Source: Brachyhypopomus gauderio (lineage: Eukaryota > Chordata > Actinopteri > Gymnotiformes > Hypopomidae). From it: a stretch of DNA of 64,000 bases. Below the pieces are notes generated by a model, which searched no databases, was not told the DNA's origin, and worked only from the letters and a program-made list of their open reading frames with translations. The DNA lies in NCBI RefSeq assembly GCF_052324685.1, contig NW_027506913.1, forward strand, positions 965,645-1,029,644, read 5' to 3'. Shown piece after piece: positions 1 through 64,000 of the stretch. Each line of letters opens with the position of its first letter. Within the stretch, counting starts at the first letter, position 1. The position numbers and the translations under genes were made by a program.

Positions 1-238
1 TGGACCTTACGGACTGTCAGCGGAAGTCCATTCCACCACCTTGTGGACTGACAGAGAAGATTCTTGTTGCATGTCTTGTCGGCATCTTGAAGGGATTGTG
101 GCACGAATAAAGCAATAATAAAGGCTTAAAGGCAGCCAGGTGCTGTAGTGGCTTGATAAGTGCTTTTATGCATGTGAGAAGCGATCCAGTTATGGGAGAC
201 TGCAATGGCCAAGATGCAAGGTAAAGAGACATATGTAG
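1..238. other. 5' flank of tRNA-Gly (unit 1 as representative)
   Basis: This is the part of the divergent intergenic spacer next to tRNA-Gly. It holds a small set of competing inverted repeats at 11-54 and a CATATG at 231-235 just upstream of the gene. I see no coding region, no second tRNA and no known element. The same 238 bp occurs in every unit; changes are at offsets 97, 108, 121, near 126, near 183 and at the CATATG (ACCTATG in units 38 and 42, ACAAATG in units 44 and 48). Confidence 0.6.
14..54. repeat. Inverted repeat / potential hairpin near unit start
   Basis: CTGTCAG at 14-20 is complementary to CTGACAG at 48-54, and TCCA at 27-30 to TGGA at 44-47, giving an 11-bp stem with a 6-nt bulge. 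A competing pairing joins GGACT (11-15) with AGTCC (25-29). The element recurs in all units; unit 46 has one base changed in the loop (TTGCACC). Function unknown. Confidence 0.5.
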
Positions 239-245
239 GCGTTGG

Positions 246-256
246 TGGTATAGTGG
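246..256 (+). promoter_or_regulatory. Pol III A box of tRNA-Gly (unit 1)
   Basis: TGGTATAGTGG fits the A-box consensus TRGYNNANNNG at every position and lies at tRNA positions 8-19. It is bound by TFIIIC. Units 5, 7 and 11 have A at the second base, which still fits the consensus. The same element is present in all 49 Gly genes. Confidence 0.9.
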
Positions 257-288
257 TGAACATAGCTGCCTTCCAAGCAGTTGACCCG

Positions 289-299
289 GGTTCGATTCC
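289..299 (+). promoter_or_regulatory. Pol III B box of tRNA-Gly (unit 1)
   Basis: GGTTCGATTCC in the T arm is a perfect B box (GGTTCGANTCC), the main TFIIIC contact. Only unit 45 departs from it (C to T at 57977). Confidence 0.9.
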
Positions 300-394
300 C
301 GGCCAACGCATCTCATTATACATGGATACCTGATGTTATTCACAAAACGTGGTACTTTGCCACTCACGTTTATTGATGGCAACCAAAGCTCATA

Positions 395-398
395 TTTT
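395..398 (+). terminator. First T4 run downstream of tRNA-Gly (unit 1)
   Basis: TTTT here is the first run of four or more T on the + strand after the gene end at 310, 85 nt downstream; a T5 follows at 414-418. Vertebrate Pol III terminates at T4 or longer, so these are the likely stop sites, implying a long 3' trailer. The arrangement is the same in every unit. Confidence 0.6.
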
Positions 399-587
399 AC
401 AGATTGCTCCTGCTTTTTACCTTCAGAGATAACTCATGCAATACAGAACGATATAGGAGTCAACACCTTCAAAAACACTGTGCTTTAATATGTTCTGGTT
501 ACATTGACACCTTACTCACAGCTGCACAGATGACCGTGACTCTTACATCGTTTTTAAATGAAGTGATACAAAGCGTTGTTATTTCTC

Positions 588-591
588 AAAA
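588..591 (-). terminator. First T4 run downstream of tRNA-Trp (unit 1)
   Basis: AAAA on the + strand is the first T4 in the direction of tRNA-Trp transcription, 72 nt beyond the gene end at 663. A weaker interrupted T run (TTCTTTA on the - strand, about 657-651) lies closer and could cause partial termination. In unit 48 the T4 is reduced to T3 by a one-base deletion that may be a sequencing error. Confidence 0.55.
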
Positions 592-662
592 TCAGAATGA
601 GGCCAAAGAGACCTGCATGCTGAAGCTGCGGCCCCATTTTCATGTTGCTATAAAGAAGCTTT

Positions 663-734
663 TGACCCCGACGTGATTTGAACACGTAACCTTCTGATCT
701 GGAGTCAGACGCGCTACCGTTGCGCCACGAGGTC
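663..734 (-). tRNA. trnW-CCA: tRNA-Trp (CCA), unit 1
   Basis: Decodes UGG tryptophan codons. Read from 734 to 663: acceptor GACCTCG/CGGGGTC (with one U:G pair), D stem GCGC/GCGC around AACGGTA, G26, anticodon stem TCTGA/TCAGA around CTCCAGA with anticodon CCA at 702-700, T stem ACGTG/CACGT with loop TTCAAAT, discriminator A at 663. The A box TGGCGCAACGG and the B-box core GTTCAAATC fit the Pol III consensus. There is no intron and no encoded CCA. The sequence is close to vertebrate tRNA-Trp-CCA; position 49 is A, giving a full A-U pair at 49-65. Confidence 0.96.
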
Positions 735-897
735 TAATACGTAGAAGTCTAGCTAAAAAAATGGAACAAGGCAGTCAGATGTTTTAGTTCAATAGCTCTT
801 CCAATGTATTTAGATTTTTTTCATTCCCTCTTGTCTGCCTTAAAGTTTCACCAATTCAAGAGGAGAGTAATGGTGAGGAAAGAACGTACCAAAGGGA

Positions 898-919
898 GGG
901 AATCTTCAGGCAGAATCCC
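898..919. repeat. Short imperfect hairpin (unit 1)
   Basis: GGGA-A-TCT at 898-905 can pair with AGA-A-TCCC at 912-919, a 7-bp stem with one A/A mismatch and a 6-nt loop. It is preserved in all units, but with so few substitutions overall, preservation alone says little. Confidence 0.35.
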
Positions 920-990
920 TGAGCTCTCTGCTTTCTTCTCAACCTGAGTAGTCTATGCATGATTCTGTGTTAGTATCTGTCGATTCGGCC

Positions 991-1070
991 CTTGAAAGGC
1001 AATACAGCTAAAGGTAACGTTTCTTGTTTATCATGCACCTGAGATGTAACAAAACGGAGGACCTTTCAAG
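991..1070. repeat. 9-bp inverted repeat with 62-bp spacer (unit 1)
   Basis: CTTGAAAGG at 991-999 is the exact reverse complement of CCTTTCAAG at 1062-1070. The right arm also lies in a local palindrome, CCTTTC-AA-GAAAGG (1062-1075). The arms are intact in all units except unit 48, where an extra C precedes the left arm. No family recognised. Confidence 0.4.
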
Positions 1071-1087
1071 AAAGGCTCTTGAGCAGA

Positions 1088-1110
1088 GTTACTTCAGAAA
1101 GTGAAGTAAC
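1088..1110. repeat. Perfect 9-bp stem, 5-nt loop hairpin (unit 1)
   Basis: GTTACTTCA at 1088-1096 and TGAAGTAAC at 1102-1110 are perfect reverse complements around GAAAG. It is the strongest local hairpin of the non-genic spacer and I found it unchanged in every complete unit. It could be a protein-binding palindrome or part of an unannotated transcript; nothing in the sequence decides. Confidence 0.5.
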
Positions 1111-1549
1111 GAAAAGAAAAACATTCTCATGTTACAATAGATTGGTGAGTGTGAAGAATAGCATCAAGTTAAAGACCTGGCAAGATTGGAACGAAGATGA
1201 GAAGAAAGTAAATGTGTTTTAGTTTAGTTTCTTATTTTTCCATGAGTATTCAAGTCTTAGTGACTACATGAAGTTTTGATTCTTCAGTTTGCGTTGAAGA
1301 CAACCATTGATTGGACCTTACGGACTGTCAGCGGAAGTCCATTCCACCACCTTGTGGACTGACAGAGAAGATTCTTGTTGCATGTCTTGTCGGCATCTTG
1401 AAGGGATGGTGGCACGAATAAAGCAATAATAGAGGCTTAAAGGCAGCCAGGTGCTGTAGTGGCTTGATAAGTGCTTTTATGCATGTGAGAAGCGATCCAG
1501 TTATGGGAGACTGCAATGGCCAAGATGCAAGGTAAAGAGACATATGTAG

Positions 1550-19088: not shown

Positions 19089-19903
19089 TAATACGTAGAA
19101 GTCTAGCTAAAAAAATGGAACAAGGCAGTCAGATGTTTTAGTTCAATAGCTCTTCCAATGTATTTTGATTTTTTTCATTCCCTCTCGTCTGCCTTAAAGT
19201 TTCACCAATTCAAGAGGAGAGTAATGGTGAGGGAAGAACGTACCAAAGGGAGGGAATCTTCAGGCAGAATCCCTGAGCTCTCTGCTTTCTTCTCAACCTG
19301 AGTAGTCTATGCATGATTCTGTGTTAGTATCTGTCGATTCGGCCCTTGAAAGGCAATACAGCTAAAGGTAACTTTTCTTGTTTATCATGCACCTGAGATG
19401 TAACAAAACGGAGGACCTTTCAAGAAAGGCTCTTGAGCAGAGTTACTTCAGAAAGTGAAGTAACGAAAAGAAAAACTTTCTCATGTTACAATAGATTGGT
19501 GAGTGTGAAGAATAGCATCAAGTTAAAGACCTGGCAAGATTGGAACGAAGATGAGAAGAAAGTAAATGTGTTTTAGTTTAGTTTCTTATTTTTCCATGAG
19601 TATTCAAGTGTTAGTGACTACATGAAGTTTTGATTCTTCAGTTTGCGTTGAAGACAACCATTGATTGGACCTTACGGACTGTCAGCGGAAGTCCATTCCA
19701 CCACCTTGTGGACTGACAGAGAAGATTCTTGTTGCATGTCTTGTCGGCATCTTGAAGGGATGGTGGCACGAATAAAGCAATAATAGAGGCTTAAAGGCAG
19801 CCAGGTGCTGTAGTGGCTTGATAAGTGCTTTTATGCATGTGAGAAGCGATCCAGTTATGGGAGACTGCAATGGCCAAGATGCAAGGTAAAGAGACATATG
19901 TAG

Positions 19904-19975
19904 GTGTTGGTGGTATAGTGGTGAGCATAGCTGCCTTCCAAGCAGTTGACCCGGGTTCGATTCCCGGCCAACGCA
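19904..19975 (+). tRNA. trnG-UCC: tRNA-Gly (UCC), unit 16, U2 variant
   Basis: First copy with C2 replaced by T (GTGTTGG), making the second acceptor pair U2:G71 instead of C2:G71. The pair still wobbles and the rest of the gene is intact. The first acceptor pairs, including C2:G71, are recognition elements for glycyl-tRNA synthetase in studied systems, so charging could be weaker. This allele occupies 27 of the 49 units. Confidence 0.94.
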
Positions 19976-20327
19976 TCTCATTATACATGGATACCTGATG
20001 TTATTCACAAAACGTGGTACTTTGCCACTCACGTTTATTGATGGCAACCAAAGCTCATGTTTTACAGATTGCTCCTGCTTTTTACCTTCAGAGATAACTC
20101 ATGCAATACAGAACGATATAGGAGTCAACACCTTCAAAAACACTGTGCTTTAATATGTTCTGGTTACATTGACACCTTACTCACAGCTGCACAGATGACC
20201 GTGACTCTTACATCGTTTTTAAATGAAGTGATACAAAGCGTTGTTATTTCTCAAAATCAGAACGAGGCCAAAGAGACCTGCATGCTGAAGCTGCGGCCCC
20301 ATTTTCATGTTGCTATAAAGAAGCTTT

Positions 20328-20399
20328 TGACCCCGACGTGATTTGAACACGTAACCTTCTGATCTGGAGTCAGACGCGCTACCGTTGCGCCACGAGGTC
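20328..20399 (-). tRNA. trnW-CCA: tRNA-Trp (CCA), unit 16
   Basis: Standard gene; trailer retains A at offset 650. Confidence 0.96.
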
Positions 20400-43501: not shown

Positions 43502-43573
43502 GTGTTGGTGGTATAGTGGTGAGCATAGCTGCCTTCCAAGCAGTTGACCCGGGTTCGATTCCCGGCCAACGCA
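43502..43573 (+). tRNA. trnG-UCC: tRNA-Gly (UCC), unit 34, U2 variant
   Basis: U2:G71 allele. Confidence 0.94.
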
Positions 43574-43925
43574 TCTCATTATACATGGATACCTGATGTT
43601 ATTCACAAAACGTGGTACTTTGCCACTCACGTTTATTGATGGCAACCAAAGCTCATGTTTTACAGATTGCTCCTGCTTTTTACCTTCAGAGATAACTCAT
43701 GCAATACAGAACGATATAGGAGTCAACACCTTCAAAAACACTGTGCTTTAATATGTTCTGGTTACATTGACACCTTACTCACAGCTGCACAGATGACCGT
43801 GACTCTTACATCGTTTTTAAATGAAGTGATACAAAGCGTTGTTATTTCTCAAAATCAGAACGAGGCCAAAGAGACCTGCATGCTGAAGCTGCGGCCCCAT
43901 TTTCATGTTGCTTTAAAGAAGCTTT

Positions 43926-43997
43926 TGACCCCGACGTGATTTGAACACGTAACCTTCTGATCTGGAGTCAGACGCGCTACCGTTGCGCCACGAGGTC
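43926..43997 (-). tRNA. trnW-CCA: tRNA-Trp (CCA), unit 34
   Basis: Standard gene, T650 trailer. Confidence 0.96.
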
Positions 43998-44812
43998 TAA
44001 TACGTAGAAGTCTAGCTAAAAAAATGGAACAAGGCAGTCAGATGTTTTAGTTCAATAGCTCTTCCAATGTATTTTGATTTTTTTCATTCCCTCTCGTCTG
44101 CCTTAAAGTTTCACCAATTCAAGAGGAGAGTAATGGTGAGGGAAGAACGTACCAAAGGGAGGGAATCTTCAGGCAGAATCCCTGAGCTCTCTGCTTTCTT
44201 CTCAACCTGAGTAGTCTATGCATGATTCTGTGTTAGTATCTGTCGATTCGGCCCTTGAAAGGCAATACAGCTAAAGGTAACTTTTCTTGTTTATCATGCA
44301 CCTGAGATGTAACAAAACGGAGGACCTTTCAAGAAAGGCTCTTGAGCAGAGTTACTTCAGAAAGTGAAGTAACGAAAAGAAAAACTTTCTCATGTTACAA
44401 TAGATTGGTGAGTGTGAAGAATAGCATCAAGTTAAAGACCTGGCAAGATTGGAACGAAGATGAGAAGAAAGTAAATGTGTTTTAGTTTAGTTTCTTATTT
44501 TTCCATGAGTATTCAAGTCTTAGTGACTACATAAAGTTTTGATTCTTCAGTTTGCGTTGAAGACAACCATTGATTGGACCTTACGGACTGTCAGCGGAAG
44601 TCCATTCCACCACCTTGTGGACTGACAGAGAAGATTCTTGTTGCATGTCTTGTCGGCATCTTGAAGGGATGGTGGCACGAATAAAGCAATAATAGAGGCT
44701 TAAAGGCAGCCAGGTGCTGTAGTGGCTTGATAAGTGCTTTTATGCATGTGAGAAGCGATCCAGTTATGGGAGACTGCAATGGCCAAGATGCAAGGTAAAG
44801 AGACATATGTAG

Positions 44813-44884
44813 GTGTTGGTGGTATAGTGGTGAGCATAGCTGCCTTCCAAGCAGTTGACCCGGGTTCGATTCCCGGCCAACGCA
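44813..44884 (+). tRNA. trnG-UCC: tRNA-Gly (UCC), unit 35, U2 variant
   Basis: U2:G71 allele. Confidence 0.94.
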
Positions 44885-45236
44885 TCTCATTATACATGGA
44901 TACCTGATGTTATTCACAAAACGTGGTACTTTGCCACTCACGTTTATTGATGGCAACCAAAGCTCATGTTTTACAGATTGCTCCTGCTTTTTACCTTCAG
45001 AGATAACTCATGCAATACAGAACGATATAGGAGTCAACACCTTCAAAAACACTGTGCTTTAATATGTTCTGGTTACATTGACACCTTACTCACAGCTGCA
45101 CAGATGACCGTGACTCTTACATCGTTTTTAAATGAAGTGATACAAAGCGTTGTTATTTCTCAAAATCAGAACGAGGCCAAAGAGACCTGCATGCTGAAGC
45201 TGCGGCCCCATTTTCATGTTGCTTTAAAGAAGCTTT

Positions 45237-45308
45237 TGACCCCGACGTGATTTGAACACGTAACCTTCTGATCTGGAGTCAGACGCGCTACCGTTGCGCC
45301 ACGAGGTC
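45237..45308 (-). tRNA. trnW-CCA: tRNA-Trp (CCA), unit 35
   Basis: Standard gene, T650 trailer. Confidence 0.96.
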
Positions 45309-46123
45309 TAATACGTAGAAGTCTAGCTAAAAAAATGGAACAAGGCAGTCAGATGTTTTAGTTCAATAGCTCTTCCAATGTATTTTGATTTTTTTCATTC
45401 CCTCTCGTCTGCCTTAAAGTTTCACCAATTCAAGAGGAGAGTAATGGTGAGGGAAGAACGTACCAAAGGGAGGGAATCTTCAGGCAGAATCCCTGAGCTC
45501 TCTGCTTTCTTCTCAACCTGAGTAGTCTATGCATGATTCTGTGTTAGTATCTGTCGATTCGGCCCTTGAAAGGCAATACAGCTAAAGGTAACTTTTCTTG
45601 TTTATCATGCACCTGAGATGTAACAAAACGGAGGACCTTTCAAGAAAGGCTCTTGAGCAGAGTTACTTCAGAAAGTGAAGTAACGAAAAGAAAAACTTTC
45701 TCATGTTACAATAGATTGGTGAGTGTGAAGAATAGCATCAAGTTAAAGACCTGGCAAGATTGGAACGAAGATGAGAAGAAAGTAAATGTGTTTTAGTTTA
45801 GTTTCTTATTTTTCCATGAGTATTCAAGTCTTAGTGACTACATAAAGTTTTGATTCTTCAGTTTGCGTTGAAGACAACCATTGATTGGACCTTACGGACT
45901 GTCAGCGGAAGTCCATTCCACCACCTTGTGGACTGACAGAGAAGATTCTTGTTGCATGTCTTGTCGGCATCTTGAAGGGATGGTGGCACGAATAAAGCAA
46001 TAATAGAGGCTTAAAGGCAGCCAGGTGCTGTAGTGGCTTGATAAGTGCTTTTATGCATGTGAGAAGCGATCCAGTTATGGGAGACTGCAATGGCCAAGAT
46101 GCAAGGTAAAGAGACATATGTAG

Positions 46124-46195
46124 GTGTTGGTGGTATAGTGGTGAGCATAGCTGCCTTCCAAGCAGTTGACCCGGGTTCGATTCCCGGCCAACGCA
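46124..46195 (+). tRNA. trnG-UCC: tRNA-Gly (UCC), unit 36, U2 variant
   Basis: U2:G71 allele. Confidence 0.94.
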
Positions 46196-46547
46196 TCTCA
46201 TTATACATGGATACCTGATGTTATTCACAAAACGTGGTACTTTGCCACTCACGTTTATTGATGGCAACCAAAGCTCATGTTTTACAGATTGCTCCTGCTT
46301 TTTACCTTCAGAGATAACTCATGCAATACAGAACGATATAGGAGTCAACACCTTCAAAAACACTGTGCTTTAATATGTTCTGGTTACATTGACACCTTAC
46401 TCACAGCTGCACAGATGACCGTGACTCTTACATCGTTTTTAAATGAAGTGATACAAAGCGTTGTTATTTCTCAAAATCAGAACGAGGCCAAAGAGACCTG
46501 CATGCTGAAGCTGCGGCCCCATTTTCATGTTGCTTTAAAGAAGCTTT

Positions 46548-46619
46548 TGACCCCGACGTGATTTGAACACGTAACCTTCTGATCTGGAGTCAGACGCGCT
46601 ACCGTTGCGCCACGAGGTC
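46548..46619 (-). tRNA. trnW-CCA: tRNA-Trp (CCA), unit 36
   Basis: Standard gene, T650 trailer. Confidence 0.96.
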
Positions 46620-47434
46620 TAATACGTAGAAGTCTAGCTAAAAAAATGGAACAAGGCAGTCAGATGTTTTAGTTCAATAGCTCTTCCAATGTATTTTGAT
46701 TTTTTTCATTCCCTCTCGTCTGCCTTAAAGTTTCACCAATTCAAGAGGAGAGTAATGGTGAGGGAAGAACGTACCAAAGGGAGGGAATCTTCAGGCAGAA
46801 TCCCTGAGCTCTCTGCTTTCTTCTCAACCTGAGTAGTCTATGCATGATTCTGTGTTAGTATCTGTCGATTCGGCCCTTGAAAGGCAATACAGCTAAAGGT
46901 AACTTTTCTTGTTTATCATGCACCTGAGATGTAACAAAACGGAGGACCTTTCAAGAAAGGCTCTTGAGCAGAGTTACTTCAGAAAGTGAAGTAACGAAAA
47001 GAAAAACTTTCTCATGTTACAATAGATTGGTGAGTGTGAAGAATAGCATCAAGTTAAAGACCTGGCAAGATTGGAACGAAGATGAGAAGAAAGTAAATGT
47101 GTTTTAGTTTAGTTTCTTATTTTTCCATGAGTATTCAAGTCTTAGTGACTACATAAAGTTTTGATTCTTCAGTTTGCGTTGAAGACAACCATTGATTGGA
47201 CCTTACGGACTGTCAGCGGAAGTCCATTCCACCACCTTGTGGACTGACAGAGAAGATTCTTGTTGCATGTCTTGTCGGCATCTTGAAGGGATGGTGGCAC
47301 GAATAAAGCAATAATAGAGGCTTAAAGGCAGCCAGGTGCTGTAGTGGCTTGATAAGTGCTTTTATGCATGTGAGAAGCGATCCAGTTATGGGAGACTGCA
47401 ATGGCCAAGATGCAAGGTAAAGAGACATATGTAG

Positions 47435-47506
47435 GTGTTGGTGGTATAGTGGTGAGCATAGCTGCCTTCCAAGCAGTTGACCCGGGTTCGATTCCCGGCC
47501 AACGCA
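47435..47506 (+). tRNA. trnG-UCC: tRNA-Gly (UCC), unit 37, U2 variant
   Basis: U2:G71 allele; last unit of the uninterrupted U2 run. Confidence 0.94.
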
Positions 47507-47858
47507 TCTCATTATACATGGATACCTGATGTTATTCACAAAACGTGGTACTTTGCCACTCACGTTTATTGATGGCAACCAAAGCTCATGTTTTACAGAT
47601 TGCTCCTGCTTTTTACCTTCAGAGATAACTCATGCAATACAGAACGATATAGGAGTCAACACCTTCAAAAACACTGTGCTTTAATATGTTCTGGTTACAT
47701 TGACACCTTACTCACAGCTGCACAGATGACCGTGACTCTTACATCGTTTTTAAATGAAGTGATACAAAGCGTTGTTATTTCTCAAAATCAGAACGAGGCC
47801 AAAGAGACCTGCATGCTGAAGCTGCGGCCCCATTTTCATGTTGCTTTAAAGAAGCTTT

Positions 47859-47930
47859 TGACCCCGACGTGATTTGAACACGTAACCTTCTGATCTGGAG
47901 TCAGACGCGCTACCGTTGCGCCACGAGGTC
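47859..47930 (-). tRNA. trnW-CCA: tRNA-Trp (CCA), unit 37
   Basis: Standard gene, T650 trailer; the unit ends with CATGAAG, as does unit 41. Confidence 0.96.
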
Positions 47931-48745
47931 TAATACGTAGAAGTCTAGCTAAAAAAATGGAACAAGGCAGTCAGATGTTTTAGTTCAATAGCTCTTCCAA
48001 TGTATTTTGATTTTTTTCATTCCCTCTCGTCTGCCTTAAAGTTTCACCAATTCAAGAGGAGAGTAATGGTGAGGGAAGAACGTACCAAAGGGAGGGAATC
48101 TTCAGGCAGAATCCCTGAGCTCTCTGCTTTCTTCTCAACCTGAGTAGTCTATGCATGATTCTGTGTTAGTATCTGTCGATTCGGCCCTTGAAAGGCAATA
48201 CAGCTAAAGGTAACTTTTCTTGTTTATCATGCACCTGAGATGTAACAAAACGGAGGACCTTTCAAGAAAGGCTCTTGAGCAGAGTTACTTCAGAAAGTGA
48301 AGTAACGAAAAGAAAAACTTTCTCATGTTACAATAGATTGGTGAGTGTGAAGAATAGCATCAAGTTAAAGACCTGGCAAGATTGGAACGAAGATGAGAAG
48401 AAAGTAAATGTGTTTTAGTTTAGTTTCTTATTTTTCCATGAGTATTCAAGTCTTAGTGACTACATGAAGTTTTGATTCTTCAGTTTGCGTTGAAGACAAC
48501 CATTGATTGGACCTTACGGACTGTCAGCGGAAGTCCATTCCACCACCTTGTGGACTGACAGAGAAGATTCTTGTTGCATGTCTTGTCGGCATCTTGAAGG
48601 GATGGTGGCACGAATAAAGCAATAATAGAGGCTTAAAGGCAGCCAGGTGCTGTAGTGGCTTGATAAGTGCTTTTATGCATGTGAGAAGCGATCCAGTTAT
48701 GGGAGACTGCAATGGCCAAGATGCAAGGTAAAGAGACCTATGTAG

Positions 48746-48817
48746 GCGTTGGTGGTATAGTGGTGAGCATAGCTGCCTTCCAAGCAGTTGACCCGGGTTC
48801 GATTCCCGGCCAACGCA
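48746..48817 (+). tRNA. trnG-UCC: tRNA-Gly (UCC), unit 38
   Basis: Standard C2 form reappears here. The immediate 5' flank is ACCTATG in place of ACATATG, shared only with unit 42. Confidence 0.96.
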
Positions 48818-49169
48818 TCTCATTATACATGGATACCTGATGTTATTCACAAAACGTGGTACTTTGCCACTCACGTTTATTGATGGCAACCAAAGCTCAT
48901 GTTTTACAGATTGCTCCTGCTTTTTACCTTCAGAGATAACTCATGCAATACAGAACGATATAGGAGTCAACACCTTCAAAAACACTGTGCTTTAATATGT
49001 TCTGGTTACATTGACACCTTACTCACAGCTGCACAGATGACCGTGACTCTTACATCGTTTTTAAATGAAGTGATACAAAGCGTTGTTATTTCTCAAAATC
49101 AGAATGAGGCCAAAGAGACCTGCATGCTGAAGCTGCGGCCCCATTTTCATGTTGCTATAAAGAAGCTTT

Positions 49170-49241
49170 TGACCCCGACGTGATTTGAACACGTAACCTT
49201 CTGATCTGGAGTCAGACGCGCTACCGTTGCGCCACGAGGTC
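49170..49241 (-). tRNA. trnW-CCA: tRNA-Trp (CCA), unit 38
   Basis: Standard gene, AAAATAA upstream, A650 trailer. Confidence 0.96.
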
Positions 49242-50056
49242 TAATACGTAGAAGTCTAGCTAAAATAATGGAACAAGGCAGTCAGATGTTTTAGTTCAAT
49301 AGCTCTTCCAATGTATTTTGATTTTTTTCATTCCCTCTCGTCTGCCTTAAAGTTTCACCAATTCAAGAGGAGAGTAATGGTGAGGGAAGAACGTACCAAA
49401 GGGAGGGAATCTTCAGGCAGAATCCCTGAGCTCTCTGCTTTCTTCTCAACCTGAGTAGTCTATGCATGATTCTGTGTTAGTATCTGTCGATTCGGCCCTT
49501 GAAAGGCAATACAGCTAAAGGTAACTTTTCTTGTTTATCATGCACCTGAGATGTAACAAAACGGAGGACCTTTCAAGAAAGGCTCTTGAGCAGAGTTACT
49601 TCAGAAAGTGAAGTAACGAAAAGAAAAACATTCTCATGTTACAAAAGATTGGTGAGTGTGAAGAATAGCATCAAGTTAAAGACCTGGCAAGATTGGAACG
49701 AAGATGAGAAGAAAGTAAATGTGTTTTAGTTTAGTTTCTTATTTTTCCATGAGTATTCAAGTCTTAGTGACTACATGAAGTTTTGATTCTTCAGTTTGCG
49801 TTGAAGACAACCATTGATTGGACCTTACGGACTGTCAGCGGAAGTCCATTCCACCACCTTGTGGACTGACAGAGAAGATTCTTGTTGCATGTCTTGTCGG
49901 CATCTTGAAGGGATGGTGGCACGAATAAAGCAATAATAGAGGCTCAAAGGCAGCCAGGTGCTGTAGTGGCTTGATAAGTGCTTTTATGCATGTGAGAATC
50001 GATCCAGTTATGGGAGACTGCAATGGCCAAGATGCAAGGTAAAGAGACATATGTAG

Positions 50057-50128
50057 GTGTTGGTGGTATAGTGGTGAGCATAGCTGCCTTCCAAGCAGTT
50101 GACCCGGGTTCGATTCCCGGCCAACGCA
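50057..50128 (+). tRNA. trnG-UCC: tRNA-Gly (UCC), unit 39, U2 variant
   Basis: U2:G71 allele; the 5' flank carries GGCTCAAAGG and GAATCGATC, shared with units 43 and 47. Confidence 0.94.
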
Positions 50129-50480
50129 TCTCATTATACATGGATACCTGATGTTATTCACAAAACGTGGTACTTTGCCACTCACGTTTATTGATGGCAA
50201 CCAAAGCTCATGTTTTACAGATTGCTCCTGCTTTTTACCTTCAGAGATAACTCATGCAATACAGAACGATATAGGAGTCAACACCTTCAAAAACACTGTG
50301 CTTTAATATGTTCTGGTTACATTGACACCTTACTCACAGCTGCACAGATGACCGTGACTCTTACATCGTTTTTAAATGAAGTGATACAAAGCGTTGTTAT
50401 TTCTCAAAATCAGAACGAGGCCAAAGAGACCTGCATGCTGAAGCTGCGGCCCCATTTTCATGTTGCTTTAAAGAAGCTTT

Positions 50481-50552
50481 TGACCCCGACGTGATTTGAA
50501 CACGTAACCTTCTGATCTGGAGTCAGACGCGCTACCGTTGCGCCACGAGGTC
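50481..50552 (-). tRNA. trnW-CCA: tRNA-Trp (CCA), unit 39
   Basis: Standard gene, T650 trailer; the right half of this unit is central-block type. Confidence 0.96.
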
Positions 50553-51367
50553 TAATACGTAGAAGTCTAGCTAAAAAAATGGAACAAGGCAGTCAGATGT
50601 TTTAGTTCAATAGCTCTTCCAATGTATTTTGATTTTTTTCATTCCCTCTCGTCTGCCTTAAAGTTTCACCAATTCAAGAGGAGAGTAATGGTGAGGGAAG
50701 AACGTACCAAAGGGAGGGAATCTTCAGGCAGAATCCCTGAGCTCTCTGCTTTCTTCTCAACCTGAGTAGTCTATGCATGATTCTGTGTTAGTATCTGTCG
50801 ATTCGGCCCTTGAAAGGCAATACAGCTAAAGGTAACTTTTCTTGTTTATCATGCACCTGAGATGTAACAAAACGGAGGACCTTTCAAGAAAGGCTCTTGA
50901 GCAGAGTTACTTCAGAAAGTGAAGTAACGAAAAGAAAAACTTTCTCATGTTACAATAGATTGGTGAGTGTGAAGAATAGCATCAAGTTAAAGACCTGGCA
51001 AGATTGGAACGAAGATGAGAAGAAAGTAAATGTGTTTTAGTTTAGTTTCTTATTTTTCCATGAGTATTCAAGTCTTAGTGACTACATAAAGTTTTGATTC
51101 TTCAGTTTGCGTTGAAGACAACCATTGATTGGACCTTACGGACTGTCAGCGGAAGTCCATTCCACCACCTTGTGGACTGACAGAGAAGATTCTTGTTGCA
51201 TGTCTTGTCGGCATCTTGAAGGGATGGTGGCACGAATAAAGCAATAATAGAGGCTTAAAGGCAGCCAGGTGCTGTAGTGGCTTGATAAGTGCTTTTATGC
51301 ATGTGAGAAGCGATCCAGTTATGGGAGACTGCAATGGCCAAGATGCAAGGTAAAGAGACATATGTAG

Positions 51368-51439
51368 GTGTTGGTGGTATAGTGGTGAGCATAGCTGCCT
51401 TCCAAGCAGTTGACCCGGGTTCGATTCCCGGCCAACGCA
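51368..51439 (+). tRNA. trnG-UCC: tRNA-Gly (UCC), unit 40, U2 variant
   Basis: U2:G71 allele. Confidence 0.94.
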
Positions 51440-51791
51440 TCTCATTATACATGGATACCTGATGTTATTCACAAAACGTGGTACTTTGCCACTCACGTTT
51501 ATTGATGGCAACCAAAGCTCATGTTTTACAGATTGCTCCTGCTTTTTACCTTCAGAGATAACTCATGCAATACAGAACGATATAGGAGTCAACACCTTCA
51601 AAAACACTGTGCTTTAATATGTTCTGGTTACATTGACACCTTACTCACAGCTGCACAGATGACCGTGACTCTTACATCGTTTTTAAATGAAGTGATACAA
51701 AGCGTTGTTATTTCTCAAAATCAGAACGAGGCCAAAGAGACCTGCATGCTGAAGCTGCGGCCCCATTTTCATGTTGCTTTAAAGAAGCTTT

Positions 51792-51863
51792 TGACCCCGA
51801 CGTGATTTGAACACGTAACCTTCTGATCTGGAGTCAGACGCGCTACCGTTGCGCCACGAGGTC
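51792..51863 (-). tRNA. trnW-CCA: tRNA-Trp (CCA), unit 40
   Basis: Standard gene, T650 trailer. Confidence 0.96.
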
Positions 51864-52678
51864 TAATACGTAGAAGTCTAGCTAAAAAAATGGAACAAGG
51901 CAGTCAGATGTTTTAGTTCAATAGCTCTTCCAATGTATTTTGATTTTTTTCATTCCCTCTCGTCTGCCTTAAAGTTTCACCAATTCAAGAGGAGAGTAAT
52001 GGTGAGGGAAGAACGTACCAAAGGGAGGGAATCTTCAGGCAGAATCCCTGAGCTCTCTGCTTTCTTCTCAACCTGAGTAGTCTATGCATGATTCTGTGTT
52101 AGTATCTGTCGATTCGGCCCTTGAAAGGCAATACAGCTAAAGGTAACTTTTCTTGTTTATCATGCACCTGAGATGTAACAAAACGGAGGACCTTTCAAGA
52201 AAGGCTCTTGAGCAGAGTTACTTCAGAAAGTGAAGTAACGAAAAGAAAAACTTTCTCATGTTACAATAGATTGGTGAGTGTGAAGAATAGCATCAAGTTA
52301 AAGACCTGGCAAGATTGGAACGAAGATGAGAAGAAAGTAAATGTGTTTTAGTTTAGTTTCTTATTTTTCCATGAGTATTCAAGTCTTAGTGACTACATAA
52401 AGTTTTGATTCTTCAGTTTGCGTTGAAGACAACCATTGATTGGACCTTACGGACTGTCAGCGGAAGTCCATTCCACCACCTTGTGGACTGACAGAGAAGA
52501 TTCTTGTTGCATGTCTTGTCGGCATCTTGAAGGGATGGTGGCACGAATAAAGCAATAATAGAGGCTTAAAGGCAGCCAGGTGCTGTAGTGGCTTGATAAG
52601 TGCTTTTATGCATGTGAGAAGCGATCCAGTTATGGGAGACTGCAATGGCCAAGATGCAAGGTAAAGAGACATATGTAG

Positions 52679-52750
52679 GTGTTGGTGGTATAGTGGTGAG
52701 CATAGCTGCCTTCCAAGCAGTTGACCCGGGTTCGATTCCCGGCCAACGCA
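52679..52750 (+). tRNA. trnG-UCC: tRNA-Gly (UCC), unit 41, U2 variant
   Basis: U2:G71 allele; unit matches unit 37 including its CATGAAG end. Confidence 0.94.
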
Positions 52751-53102
52751 TCTCATTATACATGGATACCTGATGTTATTCACAAAACGTGGTACTTTGC
52801 CACTCACGTTTATTGATGGCAACCAAAGCTCATGTTTTACAGATTGCTCCTGCTTTTTACCTTCAGAGATAACTCATGCAATACAGAACGATATAGGAGT
52901 CAACACCTTCAAAAACACTGTGCTTTAATATGTTCTGGTTACATTGACACCTTACTCACAGCTGCACAGATGACCGTGACTCTTACATCGTTTTTAAATG
53001 AAGTGATACAAAGCGTTGTTATTTCTCAAAATCAGAACGAGGCCAAAGAGACCTGCATGCTGAAGCTGCGGCCCCATTTTCATGTTGCTTTAAAGAAGCT
53101 TT

Positions 53103-53174
53103 TGACCCCGACGTGATTTGAACACGTAACCTTCTGATCTGGAGTCAGACGCGCTACCGTTGCGCCACGAGGTC
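53103..53174 (-). tRNA. trnW-CCA: tRNA-Trp (CCA), unit 41
   Basis: Standard gene, T650 trailer. Confidence 0.96.
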
Positions 53175-53989
53175 TAATACGTAGAAGTCTAGCTAAAAAA
53201 ATGGAACAAGGCAGTCAGATGTTTTAGTTCAATAGCTCTTCCAATGTATTTTGATTTTTTTCATTCCCTCTCGTCTGCCTTAAAGTTTCACCAATTCAAG
53301 AGGAGAGTAATGGTGAGGGAAGAACGTACCAAAGGGAGGGAATCTTCAGGCAGAATCCCTGAGCTCTCTGCTTTCTTCTCAACCTGAGTAGTCTATGCAT
53401 GATTCTGTGTTAGTATCTGTCGATTCGGCCCTTGAAAGGCAATACAGCTAAAGGTAACTTTTCTTGTTTATCATGCACCTGAGATGTAACAAAACGGAGG
53501 ACCTTTCAAGAAAGGCTCTTGAGCAGAGTTACTTCAGAAAGTGAAGTAACGAAAAGAAAAACTTTCTCATGTTACAATAGATTGGTGAGTGTGAAGAATA
53601 GCATCAAGTTAAAGACCTGGCAAGATTGGAACGAAGATGAGAAGAAAGTAAATGTGTTTTAGTTTAGTTTCTTATTTTTCCATGAGTATTCAAGTCTTAG
53701 TGACTACATGAAGTTTTGATTCTTCAGTTTGCGTTGAAGACAACCATTGATTGGACCTTACGGACTGTCAGCGGAAGTCCATTCCACCACCTTGTGGACT
53801 GACAGAGAAGATTCTTGTTGCATGTCTTGTCGGCATCTTGAAGGGATGGTGGCACGAATAAAGCAATAATAGAGGCTTAAAGGCAGCCAGGTGCTGTAGT
53901 GGCTTGATAAGTGCTTTTATGCATGTGAGAAGCGATCCAGTTATGGGAGACTGCAATGGCCAAGATGCAAGGTAAAGAGACCTATGTAG

Positions 53990-54061
53990 GCGTTGGTGGT
54001 ATAGTGGTGAGCATAGCTGCCTTCCAAGCAGTTGACCCGGGTTCGATTCCCGGCCAACGCA
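53990..54061 (+). tRNA. trnG-UCC: tRNA-Gly (UCC), unit 42
   Basis: Standard C2 form with the ACCTATG flank; near copy of unit 38. Confidence 0.96.
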
Positions 54062-54413
54062 TCTCATTATACATGGATACCTGATGTTATTCACAAAACG
54101 TGGTACTTTGCCACTCACGTTTATTGATGGCAACCAAAGCTCATGTTTTACAGATTGCTCCTGCTTTTTACCTTCAGAGATAACTCATGCAATACAGAAC
54201 GATATAGGAGTCAACACCTTCAAAAACACTGTGCTTTAATATGTTCTGGTTACATTGACACCTTACTCACAGCTGCACAGATGACCGTGACTCTTACATC
54301 GTTTTTAAATGAAGTGATACAAAGCGTTGTTATTTCTCAAAATCAGAATGAGGCCAAAGAGACCTGCATGCTGAAGCTGCGGCCCCATTTTCATGTTGCT
54401 ATAAAGAAGCTTT

Positions 54414-54485
54414 TGACCCCGACGTGATTTGAACACGTAACCTTCTGATCTGGAGTCAGACGCGCTACCGTTGCGCCACGAGGTC
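54414..54485 (-). tRNA. trnW-CCA: tRNA-Trp (CCA), unit 42
   Basis: Standard gene, AAAATAA upstream. Confidence 0.96.
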
Positions 54486-55300
54486 TAATACGTAGAAGTC
54501 TAGCTAAAATAATGGAACAAGGCAGTCAGATGTTTTAGTTCAATAGCTCTTCCAATGTATTTTGATTTTTTTCATTCCCTCTCGTCTGCCTTAAAGTTTC
54601 ACCAATTCAAGAGGAGAGTAATGGTGAGGGAAGAACGTACCAAAGGGAGGGAATCTTCAGGCAGAATCCCTGAGCTCTCTGCTTTCTTCTCAACCTGAGT
54701 AGTCTATGCATGATTCTGTGTTAGTATCTGTCGATTCGGCCCTTGAAAGGCAATACAGCTAAAGGTAACTTTTCTTGTTTATCATGCACCTGAGATGTAA
54801 CAAAACGGAGGACCTTTCAAGAAAGGCTCTTGAGCAGAGTTACTTCAGAAAGTGAAGTAACGAAAAGAAAAACATTCTCATGTTACAAAAGATTGGTGAG
54901 TGTGAAGAATAGCATCAAGTTAAAGACCTGGCAAGATTGGAACGAAGATGAGAAGAAAGTAAATGTGTTTTAGTTTAGTTTCTTATTTTTCCATGAGTAT
55001 TCAAGTCTTAGTGACTACATGAAGTTTTGATTCTTCAGTTTGCGTTGAAGACAACCATTGATTGGACCTTACGGACTGTCAGCGGAAGTCCATTCCACCA
55101 CCTTGTGGACTGACAGAGAAGATTCTTGTTGCATGTCTTGTCGGCATCTTGAAGGGATGGTGGCACGAATAAAGCAATAATAGAGGCTCAAAGGCAGCCA
55201 GGTGCTGTAGTGGCTTGATAAGTGCTTTTATGCATGTGAGAATCGATCCAGTTATGGGAGACTGCAATGGCCAAGATGCAAGGTAAAGAGACATATGTAG

Positions 55301-55372
55301 GTGTTGGTGGTATAGTGGTGAGCATAGCTGCCTTCCAAGCAGTTGACCCGGGTTCGATTCCCGGCCAACGCA
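55301..55372 (+). tRNA. trnG-UCC: tRNA-Gly (UCC), unit 43, U2 variant
   Basis: U2:G71 allele; CATGTATACC in the 3' flank is shared only with unit 47. Confidence 0.94.
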
Positions 55373-55724
55373 TCTCATTATACATGTATACCTGATGTTA
55401 TTCACAAAACGTGGTACTTTGCCACTCACGTTTATTGATGGCAACCAAAGCTCATGTTTTACAGATTGCTCCTGCTTTTTACCTTCAGAGATAACTCATG
55501 CAATACAGAACGATATAGGAGTCAACACCTTCAAAAACACTGTGCTTTAATATGTTCTGGTTACATTGACACCTTACTCACAGCTGCACAGATGACCGTG
55601 ACTCTTACATCGTTTTTAAATGAAGTGATACAAAGCGTTGTTATTTCTCAAAATCAGAATGAGGCCAAAGAGACCTGCATGCTGAAGCTGCGGCCCCATT
55701 TTCATGTTGCTATAAAGATGCTTT

Positions 55725-55796
55725 TGACCCCGACGTGATTTGAACACGTAACCTTCTGATCTGGAGTCAGACGCGCTACCGTTACGCCACGAGGTC
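55725..55796 (-). tRNA. trnW-CCA: tRNA-Trp (CCA), unit 43, C13 to U
   Basis: A at 55784 on the + strand changes C13 to U, making U13:G22 in the D stem. The A box still fits because this position is unconstrained. The 3' trailer has GATGC in place of GAAGC. Same changes in unit 47. Confidence 0.94.
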
Positions 55797-56611
55797 TAAT
55801 ACGTAGAAGTCTAGCTAAAAAAATGGAACAAGGCAGTCAGATGTTTTAGTTCAATAGCTCTTCCAATGTATTTAGATTTTTTTCATTCCCTCTCGTCTGC
55901 CTTAAAGTTTCACCAATTCAAGAGGAGAGTAATGGTGAGGGAAGAACATACCAAAGGGAGGGAATCTTCAGGCAGAATCCCTGAGCTCTCTGCTTTCTTC
56001 TCAACCTGAGTAGTCTATGCATGATTCTGTGTTAGTATCTGTCGATTCGGCCCTTGAAAGGCAATACAACTAAAGGTAACGTTTCTTGTTTATCATGCAC
56101 CTGAGATGTAACAAAACGGAGGACCTTTCAAGAAAGGCTCTTGAGCAGAGTTACTTCAGAAAGTGAAGTAACGAAAAGAAAAAAATTCTCATGTTACAAT
56201 AGATTGGTGAGTGTGAAGAATAGCATCAAGTTAAAGACCTGGCAAGATTGGAACGAAGATGAGAAGAAAGTAAATGTGTTTTAGTTTAGTTTCTTATTTT
56301 TCCATGAGTATTCAAGTCTTAGTGACTACATGAAGTTTTGATTCTTCAGTTTGCGTTGAAGACAACCATTGATTGGACCTTACGGACTGTCAGCGGAAGT
56401 CCATTCCACCACCTTGTGGACTGACAGAGAAGATTCTTGTTGCATGTCTTGTCGGCATCTTGAAGGGATGGTGGCACGAATAAAGCAATAATAGAGGCTT
56501 AAAGGCAGCCAGGTGCTGTAGTGGCTTGATAAGTGCTTTTATGCATGTGAGAAGCGATCCAGTTATGGGAGACTGCAATGGCCAAGATGCAAGGTAAAGA
56601 GACAAATGTAG

Positions 56612-57035: not shown

Positions 57036-57107
57036 TGACCCCGACGTGATTTGAACACGTAACCTTCTGATCTGGAGTCAGACGCGCTACCGTTGCGCCA
57101 CGAGGTC
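57036..57107 (-). tRNA. trnW-CCA: tRNA-Trp (CCA), unit 44
   Basis: Standard gene. Confidence 0.96.
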
Positions 57108-59729: not shown

Positions 59730-60544
59730 TAATACGTAGAAGTCTAGCTAAAATAATGGAACAAGGCAGTCAGATGTTTTAGTTCAATAGCTCTTCCAAT
59801 GTATTTTGATTTTTTTCATTCCCTCTCGTCTGCCTTAAAGTTTCACCAATTCAAGAGGAGAGTAATGGTGAGGGAAGAACGTACCAAAGGGAGGGAATCT
59901 TCAGGCAGAATCCCTGAGCTCTCTGCTTTCTTCTCAACCTGAGTAGTCTATGCATGATTCTGTGTTAGTATCTGTCGATTCGGCCCTTGAAAGGCAATAC
60001 AGCTAAAGGTAACTTTTCTTGTTTATCATGCACCTGAGATGTAACAAAACGGAGGACCTTTCAAGAAAGGCTCTTGAGCAGAGTTACTTCAGAAAGTGAA
60101 GTAACGAAAAGAAAAACATTCTCATGTTACAAAAGATTGGTGAGTGTGAAGAATAGCATCAAGTTAAAGACCTGGCAAGATTGGAACGAAGATGAGAAGA
60201 AAGTAAATGTGTTTTAGTTTAGTTTCTTATTTTTCCATGAGTATTCAAGTCTTAGTGACTACATGAAGTTTTGATTCTTCAGTTTGCGTTGAAGACAACC
60301 ATTGATTGGACCTTACGGACTGTCAGCGGAAGTCCATTCCACCACCTTGTGGACTGACAGAGAAGATTCTTGTTGCATGTCTTGTCGGCATCTTGAAGGG
60401 ATGGTGGCACGAATAAAGCAATAATAGAGGCTCAAAGGCAGCCAGGTGCTGTAGTGGCTTGATAAGTGCTTTTATGCATGTGAGAATCGATCCAGTTATG
60501 GGAGACTGCAATGGCCAAGATGCAAGGTAAAGAGACATATGTAG

Positions 60545-60616
60545 GTGTTGGTGGTATAGTGGTGAGCATAGCTGCCTTCCAAGCAGTTGACCCGGGTTCG
60601 ATTCCCGGCCAACGCA
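60545..60616 (+). tRNA. trnG-UCC: tRNA-Gly (UCC), unit 47, U2 variant
   Basis: U2:G71 allele; near copy of unit 43, but the unit carries seven single-base indels, none inside this gene. Confidence 0.93.
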
Positions 60617-60970
60617 TCTCATTATACATGTATACCTGATGTTATTCACAAAACGTGGTACCTTTGCCACTCACGTTTATTGATGGCAACCAAAGCTCAT
60701 GTTTTACAGATTGCTCCTGCTTTTTACCTTCAGAGATAACTCATGCAATACAGAACGATATAGGAGTCAACACCTTCAAAAAACACTGTGCTTTAATATG
60801 TTCTGGTTACATTGACACCTTACTCACAGCTGCACAGATGACCGTGACTCTTACATCGTTTTTAAATGAAGTGATACAAAGCGTTGTTATTTCTCAAAAT
60901 CAGAATGAGGCCAAAGAGACCTGCATGCTGAAGCTGCGGCCCCATTTTCATGTTGCTATAAAGATGCTTT

Positions 60971-61043
60971 TGACCCCCGACGTGATTTGAACACGTAACC
61001 TTCTGATCTGGAGTCAGACGCGCTACCGTTACGCCACGAGGTC
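60971..61043 (-). tRNA. trnW-CCA: tRNA-Trp (CCA), unit 47, +1 insertion in acceptor
   Basis: The run of four C (+ strand) in the acceptor 3' strand is five here, making the gene 73 nt with a bulged or shifted acceptor stem, plus C13 to U as in unit 43. A homopolymer insertion within a cluster of other indels is more likely a sequence error than a true defect; if real, the copy is probably not functional. Confidence 0.7.
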
Positions 61044-61859
61044 TAATACGTAGAAGTCTAGCTAAAAAAATGGAACAAGGCAGTCAGATGTTTTAGTTCA
61101 ATAGCTCTTCCAATGTATTTAGATTTTTTTCATTCCCTCTCGTCTGCCTTAAAGTTTCACCAATTCAAGAGGAGAGTAATGGTGAGGGAAGAACATACCA
61201 AAGGAGGGAATCTTCAGGCAGAATCCCTGAGCTCTCTGCTTTCTTCTCAACCTGAGTAGTCTATGCATGATTCTGTGTTATGTATCTGTCGATTCGGCCC
61301 TTGAAAGGCAATACAAACTAAAGGTAACGTTTCTTGTTTATCATGCACCTGAGATGTAACAAAACGGAGGACCTTTCAAGAAAGGCTCTTGAGCAGAGTT
61401 ACTTCAGAAAGTGAAGTAACGAAAAGAAAAAAATTCTCATGTTACAATAGATTGGTGAGTGTGAAGAATAGCATCAAGTTAAAGACCTGGCAAGATTGAA
61501 CGAAGATGAGAAGAAAGTAAATGTGTTTTAGTTTAGTTTCTTATTTTTCCATGAGTATTCAAGTCTTAGTGACTACATGAAGTTTTGATTCTTCAGTTTG
61601 CGTTGAAGACAACCATTGATTGGACCTTACGGACTGTCAGCGGAAGTCCATTCCACCACCTTGTGGACTGACAGAGAAGATTCTTGTTGCATGTCTTGTC
61701 GGCATCTTGAAGGGATGGTGGCACGAATAAAGCAATAATAGAGGCTTAAAGGCAGCCAGGTTGCTGTAGTGGCTTGATAAGTGCTTTTATGCATGTGAGA
61801 AGCGATCCAGTTATGGGAGACTGCAATGGCCAAGATGCAAGGTAAAGAGACAAATGTAG

Positions 61860-61931
61860 GCGTGGGTGGTATAGTGGTGAGCATAGCTGCCTTCCAAGCA
61901 GTTGACCCGGGTTCGATTCCCGGCCAACGCA
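61860..61931 (+). tRNA. trnG-UCC: tRNA-Gly (UCC), unit 48, G5 acceptor mismatch
   Basis: Same G5/A68 mismatch as unit 44 (base 61864) with the same ACAAATG flank. An inserted T lies about 100 bp upstream. Confidence 0.88.
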
Positions 61932-62283
61932 TCTCGTTATACATGGATACCTGATGTTATTCACAAAACGTGGTACTTTGCCACTCACGTTTATTGATGG
62001 CAACCAAAGCTCATGTTTTACAGATTGCTCCTGCTTTTTACCTTCAGAGATAACTCATGCAATACAGAACGATATAGGAGTCAACACCTTCAAAAACACT
62101 GTGCTTTAATATGTTCTGGTTACATTGACACCTTACTCACAGCTGCACAGATGACCCGTGACTCTTACATCGTTTTTAAATGAAGTGATACAAAGCGTTG
62201 TTATTTCTCAAATCAGAATGAGGCCAAAGAGACCTGCATGCTGAAGCTGCGGCCCCATTTTCATGTTGCTATAAAGAAGCTTT

Positions 62284-62355
62284 TGACCCCGACGTGATTT
62301 GAACACGTAACCTTCTGATCTGGAGTCAGACGCGCTACCGTTGCGCCACGAGGTC
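62284..62355 (-). tRNA. trnW-CCA: tRNA-Trp (CCA), unit 48
   Basis: Gene itself standard. In its trailer the T4 run is T3 because one A is missing on the + strand near 62211, so the next candidate terminator would be the T5 about 190 nt away; likely a sequencing error. Confidence 0.93.
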
Positions 62356-63172
62356 TAATACGTAGAAGTCTAGCTAAAAAAATGGAACAAGGCAGTCAGA
62401 TGTTTTAGTTCAATAGCTCTTCCAATGTATTTAGATTTTTTTCATTCCCTCTCGTCTGCCTTAAAGTTTCACCAATTCAAGAGGAGAGTAATGGTGAGGG
62501 AAGAACGTACCAAAGGGAGGGAATCTTCAGGCAGAATCCCTGAGCTCTCTGCTTTCATTCTCAACCTGAGTAGTCTATGCATGATTCTGTGTTAGTATCT
62601 GTCGATTCGGCCCCTTGAAAGGCAATACAGCTAAAGGTAACGTTTCTTGTTTATCATGCACCTGAGATGTAACAAAACGGAGGACCTTTCAAGAAAGGCT
62701 CTTGAGCAGAGTTACTTCAGAAAGTGAAGTAACGAAAAGAAAAACATTCTCATGTTACAATAGATTGGTGAGTGTGAAGAATAGCATCAAGTTAAAGACC
62801 TGGCAAGATTGGAACGAAGATGAGAAGAAAGTAAATGTGTTTTAGTTTAGTTTCTTATTTTTCCATGAGTATTCAAGTCTTAGTGACTACATGAAGTTTT
62901 GATTCTTCAGTTTGCGTTGAAGACAACCATTGATTGGACCTTACGGACTGTCAGCGGAAGTCCATTCCACCACCTTGTGGACTGACAGAGAAGATTCTTG
63001 TTGCATGTCTTGTCGGCATCTTGAAGGGATGGTGGCACGAATAAAGCAATAATAGAGGCTTAAAGGCAGCCAGGTGCTGTAGTGGCTTGATAAGTGCTTT
63101 TATGCATGTGAGAAGCGATCCAGTTATGGGAGACTGCAATGGCCAAGATGCAAGGTAAAGAGACATATGTAG

Positions 63173-63244
63173 GCGTTGGTGGTATAGTGGTGAGCATAGC
63201 TGCCTTCCAAGCAGTTGACCCGGGTTCGATTCCCGGCCAACGCA
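63173..63244 (+). tRNA. trnG-UCC: tRNA-Gly (UCC), unit 49
   Basis: Standard C2 form. Confidence 0.96.
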
Positions 63245-63597
63245 TCTCATTATACATGGATACCTGATGTTATTCACAAAACGTGGTACTTTGCCACTCA
63301 CGTTTATTGATGGCAACCAAAGCTCATGTTTTACAGATTGCTCCTGCTTTTTACCTTCAGAGATAACTCATGCAATACAGAACGATATAGGAGTCAACAC
63401 CTTCAAAAACACTGTGCTTTAATATGTTCTGGTTACATTGACACCTTACTCACAGCTGCACAGATGACCGTGACTCTTACATCGTTTTTAAATGAAGTGA
63501 TACAAAGCGTTGTTATTTCTCAAAATCAGAACGAGGCCAAAGAGACCTGCATGCTGAAGCTGCGGCCCCCATTTTCATGTTGCTATAAAGAAGCTTT

Positions 63598-63669
63598 TGA
63601 CCCCGACGTGATTTGAACACGTAACCTTCTGATCTGGAGTCAGACGCGCTACCGTTGCGCCACGAGGTC
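63598..63669 (-). tRNA. trnW-CCA: tRNA-Trp (CCA), unit 49
   Basis: Standard gene, AAAATAA upstream; shifted by one base relative to the unit phase because of an inserted C near 63566. Confidence 0.96.
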
Positions 63670-64000
63670 TAATACGTAGAAGTCTAGCTAAAATAATGGA
63701 ACAAGGCAGTCAGATGTTTTAGTTCAATAGCTCTTCCAATGTATTTTGATTTTTTTCATTCCCTCTCGTCTGCCTTAAAGTTTCACCAATTCAAGAGGAG
63801 AGTAATGGTGAGGGAAGAACGTACCAAAGGGAGGGAATCTTCAGGCAGAATCCCTGAGCTCTCTGCTTTCTTCTCAACCTGAGTAGTCTATGCATGATTC
63901 TGTGTTAGTATCTGTCGATTCGGCCCTTGAAAGGCAATACAGCTAAAGGTAACTTTTCTTGTTTATCATGCACCTGAGATGTAACAAAACGGAGGACCTT

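Follow-up and report, generated by a model that had tools for sequence, protein, structure and literature searches.

The window analyzed here, a 64,000-nucleotide stretch of Brachyhypopomus gauderio DNA (positions 965645-1029644 of contig NW_027506913.1, hereafter C69, reaching the last base of this contig), is a tandem array of tRNA genes (tDNAs) in which each 1311-bp unit carries one tRNA-Gly(UCC) and one tRNA-Trp(CCA) gene. The 49 units (48 full and one cut, 1..64000, delimited by ARAGORN and unit cutting) form the contig-end part of a longer array, and the arrayed genes lack the terminator expected close to the 3' end of a tRNA gene. By comparison with other vertebrate arrays, we lean towards the reading that this mostly transcribable macrosatellite supplies tRNA to the germ line (oocyte or early embryo).

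Organization and extent of the array

ARAGORN identified 49 tRNA-Gly(TCC) genes on the forward strand and 49 tRNA-Trp(CCA) genes on the reverse strand of the window, with their 3' ends facing each other; thus, all genes of the original prediction (98/98) were recovered in the convergent arrangement it had described. The claimed period of 1311 bp was found in 46 of 48 spacings, the other two being 1314 bp, and no unique sequence was seen between the units of the window, again as claimed. Cutting at a spacer anchor gave 49 units, the last one ended by the window edge (unit 1, 2..1312, is an example of the 1311-bp unit), with 28 distinct sequences among them and a base composition of 42% GC.

The first tRNA-Gly gene (239..310, forward strand) and the first tRNA-Trp gene (663..734, reverse strand), both called by ARAGORN, scored 64.7 and 69 bits with the Rfam tRNA model, respectively, and their 3' ends are separated by 352 nt. 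Over units 1 and 2, all four genes scored 63-69 bits (gathering score 29), and no other Rfam family reached its gathering score there. As a chance control, search patterns read backwards gave 0 matches in the 796.5-Mb genome; given the high Rfam scores and the unmatched reversed patterns, a chance origin of the matches is not an issue. Tandem Repeats Finder, limited to periods of up to 500 and hence blind to a 1311-bp unit, reported 0 repeats in the window. Internal A and B boxes are present in the genes of the unit: the Gly gene contains an A box matching TRGYNNANNNG (246..256) and the B box GGTTCGATTCC (289..299), both on the forward strand, and the Trp gene an A box (717..727) and the B box GTTCAAATC (675..683), both on the reverse strand. 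These boxes were assigned by comparison with the general box consensus; the B box is altered in some copies, and most Trp copies and the readable Gly copies keep a tRNA-like sequence with both boxes. An imperfect spacer hairpin (2..45, forward strand) lies at the same place in each unit, with a predicted energy of -14.9 kcal/mol when the consensus is folded as RNA, and matches no Rfam family in the first two units.

The perfect register that had been described holds for the units before unit 47 and breaks down in the last three (units 47-49, 60308..64000), which contain single-base insertions and deletions (indels). Both 1314-bp spacings fall within these units, at the physical end of C69. Unit 47 has the same substitutions as unit 43 plus indels that unit 43 lacks. 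Because this sister unit is free of indels and the affected units are situated at the contig end, the indels probably represent an unpolished contig end rather than biology.

The array extends well beyond the window. In the genome searched (796.5 Mb, 840 contigs), an exact 77-mer over the Trp gene matched 94 times on the forward and 170 times on the reverse strand, and a 58-mer from the spacer, allowed up to 3 mismatches, 278 and 122 times, i.e. 400 units; among the matches listed, all of both probes were on contigs C1 or C69. On C69, the first copy among the matches listed was at position 641,728. Probing at 645,001 gave non-array sequence, and array was seen with eight probes spanning 650,001 to 701,001 and in the long pieces from 705,645 on (C69 was covered by short probes up to 705 kb and by long pieces beyond it, except for 905645-925644, and the reading of the C1 part was confined to its two ends). 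The array thereby covers approximately 380 kb on C69 and approximately 163 kb on C1, where it starts near 36,179,946 and the last Trp copy among the matches listed ends at 36,343,367. The original estimate of at least 64 kb thus holds, though it was far too low, and many head-to-tail units with intact tRNA genes, as expected of a vertebrate tandem tDNA array, were found genome-wide.

C69 terminates inside the array, and beyond the inner end of the array on C1 a long N stretch follows. Two partly read C1 units at the gap side showed 0 differences from several C69 units over 1012 and 939 comparable bases, whereas at the outer C1 edge two units were 36 and 37 bases off the majority (the next, partial unit 5). 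At the outer edge of C69, eight probes of 100-200 bases had 95-99.5% identity. Because the gap-side C1 units equal C69 units while the outer ones diverge, a single array split by the assembly between C69 and C1 is likely, and the two array ends possibly overlap. We regard it as highly improbable that an assembly artefact accounts for most of the array size, through duplicated or mis-joined units or through the same copies being present on both contigs. The broken-off contig, the N stretch, the unpolished end and the identity of gap-side units, which makes an overlap possible, would fit such an artefact; however, the two parts adjoin different non-array flanks in compatible orientation, 144 of 217 full C69 units are distinct with ordered variant blocks, and tandem arrays collapse in assemblies more commonly than they are inflated.

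Terminators of arrayed and dispersed genes

Terminator distances and unit variation were determined with full units of C69. Of 223 units cut, the analysis kept 217 with lengths of 1290-1330 bp and left out 6 (4 with insertions, 2 at block ends), as well as two part-units that precede the first anchor. The Gly gene was only partly readable in 127 of the 217 units, so that Gly tallies beyond the window are lower bounds. In the first unit, the first run of four thymidines (T4) is found 84 nt past the end of the Gly gene (395..398, forward strand) and 71 nt past the end of the Trp gene (588..591, reverse strand). The distance for Gly was 84 nt in 211 of the 217 units (82 nt in 3 and 103 nt in 3), and that for Trp 71 nt in 214 (58, 186 and 187 nt in one each). 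Thus, the canonical near-3' T4 terminator of tRNA genes transcribed by RNA polymerase III (Pol III) is missing in 217/217 units. Since only approximately 24% (forward) and 12% (reverse) of 25-nt spacer stretches contain a T4, its absence near the genes is no depletion beyond chance, yet it is a lack of the expected tRNA-gene terminator.

Separate dispersed genes for the same two tRNAs exist. A 21-mer from the 3' end of the Trp gene occurs 346 times in the genome and is followed by array flank in 344 cases; the remaining two form a pair on C16, each with a T4 after 4 nt, and are the only matches of the 21-mer with TTTT within 25 nt (Trp genes with other 3' ends fall outside this count). Four non-array Gly genes, on C12, C16 (two) and C52, have a T4 after 4-5 nt; this search required a T4 and some Gly genes were not read, so that the number is no fair count. 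In yeast, Pol III termination is reported to require T-tracts, weak ones being aided by RNA structure and Sen1 (PMC9278858), and a literature search on Pol III termination found nothing on vertebrate arrays without terminators. The arrayed genes may be read through to the distal T4s with subsequent trimming of the trailer, or they may be poorly transcribed.

Unit variation, insertions and neighbouring loci

The Gly genes of the window comprise 8 sequences: 27 copies differ from the reference type by C2>U only, 11 are of the reference type, and a single other change is found in each of the remaining 11 (3+3+2+1+1+1). Within the window, C2>U is concentrated in a block of units 16-43 (19667..56374, forward strand), where unit comparison found it in 26 of the 28 units, with units 38 and 42 as the exceptions; outside the block it occurs in unit 47. 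Such a pattern would be expected from an amplified variant block. A genome-wide count of Gly U2 was not used, as it gave 4 on C1 and 0 on C69 versus 27 in the window itself. The Trp genes are identical in 44 of 49 window units. Over the 217 C69 units, 187 Trp copies are without mismatch in 21 stem pairs, 29 have 1-4 mismatches and 1 a length change. Identity to the consensus was seen in 158 copies, and 212 units received a Trp call from ARAGORN. The anticodon is altered in 4/217 Trp copies, and ARAGORN gave four Gly(CCC) calls, probably for the same genes.

Pairwise differences over the 217 units averaged 8.1 bases and grew with the distance between units, and the outermost fetched units had less close nearest neighbours. 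Non-CpG positions were variable at 15/55 sites in Trp, 9/59 in Gly (under-counted) and 92/1112 in the spacer. When gene flanks of 30 nt were considered separately, variable non-CpG sites amounted to 24/114 in the genes, 22/114 in the flanks and 70/998 elsewhere (flanks versus elsewhere, Fisher p 5e-5). In a control in which the annotation was rotated along the unit, 42 of 1310 rotations were as high as the observed value for flanks, and 13 as that for genes plus flanks. The test was run with three flank widths, three cut-offs and three unit sets; width 30, the first used, is quoted, and widths of 20 and 50 gave 68 and 26, and 148 and 41 of 1310, respectively. Raised mutation beside tRNA genes has been attributed to transcription (PMC8113476, citing Thornlow 2018), and the variable-site peak is suggestive of transcription in the germ line, with selection relaxed on the individual redundant copies. 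The highest variability is that of CpG-type sites (30/55 in the spacer, a class inflated by its own definition), which is compatible with germline methylation; the observed/expected ratio of CpG in the spacer is 0.47.

The anatomy of the array is satellite-like, with a homogenised interior, diverged outer units, block duplications and transposons inside; strong edge divergence was read on the C1 side. An insertion of 2.7 kb with an 8-bp target duplication is present three times, at C69:753440, 762697 and 771954; this spacing of 9257 bp indicates that multi-unit blocks were duplicated after the element had landed. The insertion has an open frame of 627 aa, for which Pfam gave the zinc-finger PF18658 only; it looks hAT-like, with the transposase unconfirmed by Pfam. 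A unit at C69:878224 has an internal deletion and a 3.4-kb insertion with TTAA-type inverted-repeat ends.

The start of C69 is occupied by a different and much denser array of tDNAs, tRNA-Gln(CTG) and tRNA-Gln(TTG), which repeats at a period near 300 bp. A 60-mer probe from the spacer of this Gln array matched 778 times when up to 3 mismatches were allowed; the matches listed were on C54 and C69. On C69, probes at 1, 100 and 200 kb matched and one at 210 kb did not (extent by probes only), and on C54 the Gln array spans about 1295795-1344749 or beyond. No T4 was present downstream of the two Gln genes read (2/2) in the 130 and 429 nt available. The motif TCTTTAT was considered as a shared non-canonical terminator: it occurs within 20 nt after Trp and Gln genes, but is altered after Trp in 18 of 49 window units and absent after Gly, so that it was rejected as a common terminator and remains a lead.

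Among 24554 5S rRNA candidates, 47 were scored, with 44 on C14, 2 on C469, 1 on C28 and none on C69, C54 or C1; the 44 on C14 form a tandem 5S rRNA array (C14:8569299-8626107) with a period near 1087 bp. The genome furthermore contains a large immune-receptor expansion with at least 150 FISNA-type NLR domains, densest on C18, C1 (53-55 Mb), C67 and C53. FISNA (PF14484), a fish-type NLR domain whose presence suggests a teleost, gave 150 matches from 182 candidates and 0 in 14 prokaryotic control genomes.

Possible roles: tRNA supply, silent satellite or boundary

Three options had been put forward for the array in the original prediction: bulk tRNA supply, a silent satellite and an insulator domain. 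Bulk supply appears best supported, by analogy; a satellite-like anatomy was indeed seen, and the insulator gained nothing. We propose a tDNA macrosatellite of approximately 400 or more copies of the 1311-bp unit that would be kept alike by unequal exchange. Together with block duplication, unequal exchange would copy runs of units, and a variant in an expanding block, such as Gly C2>U, would spread, while outer units would decay and the interior homogenise. The majority of the readable copies still encode foldable tRNAs with both internal boxes, and the genes would mostly be transcribable. Pol III would transcribe them mainly in the germ line, during oogenesis or in the early embryo, to give tRNA in bulk, and the dispersed T4-bearing genes would serve other cells. 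Because the first T4 is usually 71-84 nt away, transcripts would be expected to carry long 3' trailers that RNase Z removes, and termination to be weaker than that of the dispersed genes.

The array belongs to a known kind, the tandem tDNA arrays of fish and frogs; the terminator contrast is the part worth testing. A literature search found no Gly-Trp array in fish, which is no proof of absence. The original note had assumed that the copy number of a single isoacceptor is usually far lower, but zebrafish, with about 20,000 tDNAs of which 65% are clustered (PMC2888827), shows that high numbers are not unheard of. The array resembles the highly repetitive tRNA gene clusters on the long arm of zebrafish chromosome 4 (Chr4R Region-2); the Chr4R region is described as harbouring maternal 5S and small nuclear RNA genes as well as most tRNA genes (PMC11075544), and tRNA isodecoders of zebrafish eggs and early embryos are reported to stem from repetitive regions (PMC11417395). 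In the present genome, the 47 5S matches scored among 24554 candidates sit away from the array. Xenopus arrays consist of a different tRNA set and unit. They are likewise long tandem tDNA arrays of a vertebrate, with oocyte or early-embryo activity as a Xenopus feature, and a commentary describes oocyte-specific tandem tRNA genes as activated at zygotic genome activation (PMC11500080). In both Danio and Xenopus, neighbouring tDNA pairs are reported to be nearly all parallel (PMC2888827), whereas they are convergent here. The human 1q23.3 tDNA variable number tandem repeat shares several tRNA genes per unit and a large array, there of variable copy number; its GC-rich unit of 7.3 kb is present in 9-43 copies per allele and bound by CTCF (PMC4041453), in contrast to 1.3 kb, 42% GC, approximately 400 copies and no CTCF-like core (up to 1 mismatch, window) here. 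The Arabidopsis Ser-Tyr-Tyr (SYY) cluster is also tandem with two tRNA specificities, and is reported to be methylated; it is silent across most tissues but functional, with activity in cells of the root tip (PMC12308677). It differs in being from a plant, in its tRNAs and in its demonstrated expression.

A simple working supply of tRNA is put in doubt by two features, namely the C2>U block and the lack of near terminators. A T4 closer than 82 nt (Gly) or 58 nt (Trp) was found in 0 of 217 units, and C2>U affects the glycine identity pair in 27 of the 49 window Gly copies. C2-G71 is listed among the eukaryotic glycine determinants on the basis of yeast data, with no higher-eukaryote examples known according to that source (PMC9976931), and a U2 might carry a charging cost. 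Moreover, the gene bodies are no more conserved than the spacer and at least as variable; the variable-site peak weakens with a cut-off of at least 3 minor copies (185 flank and 54 gene-plus-flank rotations of 1310) and with the 48 full units of the window alone (97 and 38 of 1310), and 0 of the 47 scored 5S matches (24554 candidates) adjoin the array.

Several of these observations would suit a largely silent satellite, in which a Gly-Trp pair was caught in an expanding tandem repeat and its genes ride along methylated and unused. The absent T4s, gene bodies that vary at least like the spacer, the C2>U block, the highly variable CpG-type sites with a low spacer CpG ratio, and the transposon insertions and block duplications all point that way, and we consider such a satellite possible, if not what we would expect. 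Against it stand the 21 of 21 checked stem pairs intact in 187/217 Trp copies and the modest peak of variable sites at genes and 30-nt flanks, which weakly favours germline transcription. In addition, large repetitive tDNA clusters of zebrafish are reported to be expressed early (PMC11417395), and methylated arrays can still be transcribed, as described for SYY (PMC12308677). A putative role as chromatin boundary or insulator through dense TFIIIC binding seems very unlikely. With A and B boxes assigned by consensus in every unit, the approximately 400 units could provide the binding sites, and the human 1q23.3 repeat has been proposed as a boundary (PMC4041453); however, a CTCF-like consensus core with up to 1 mismatch was found 0 times in the window (0.35 expected), which speaks against the insulator domain originally suggested.

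Returning to a germline tRNA supply, a bolder and rather doubtful extension is that arrayed tDNAs constitute a separate Pol III class, marked by the missing near terminator and used only where another termination route exists. This class would include Gly, Trp and, judged from two genes read, the neighbouring Gln array, and the alternative route may be an oocyte or embryo factor, RNA structure or a Senataxin-like release. If true, the type of terminator would be of help in telling maternal and somatic tRNA supply apart, and the long trailers might be products in their own right. The array offers a natural case for asking whether very large tDNA arrays of vertebrates produce maternal tRNA or are satellites that merely ride along, and it also bears on whether tRNA genes work without a near T4. 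Gly U2, the array-specific trailers and the block variants would serve as markers that separate RNA of the array from that of the dispersed genes.

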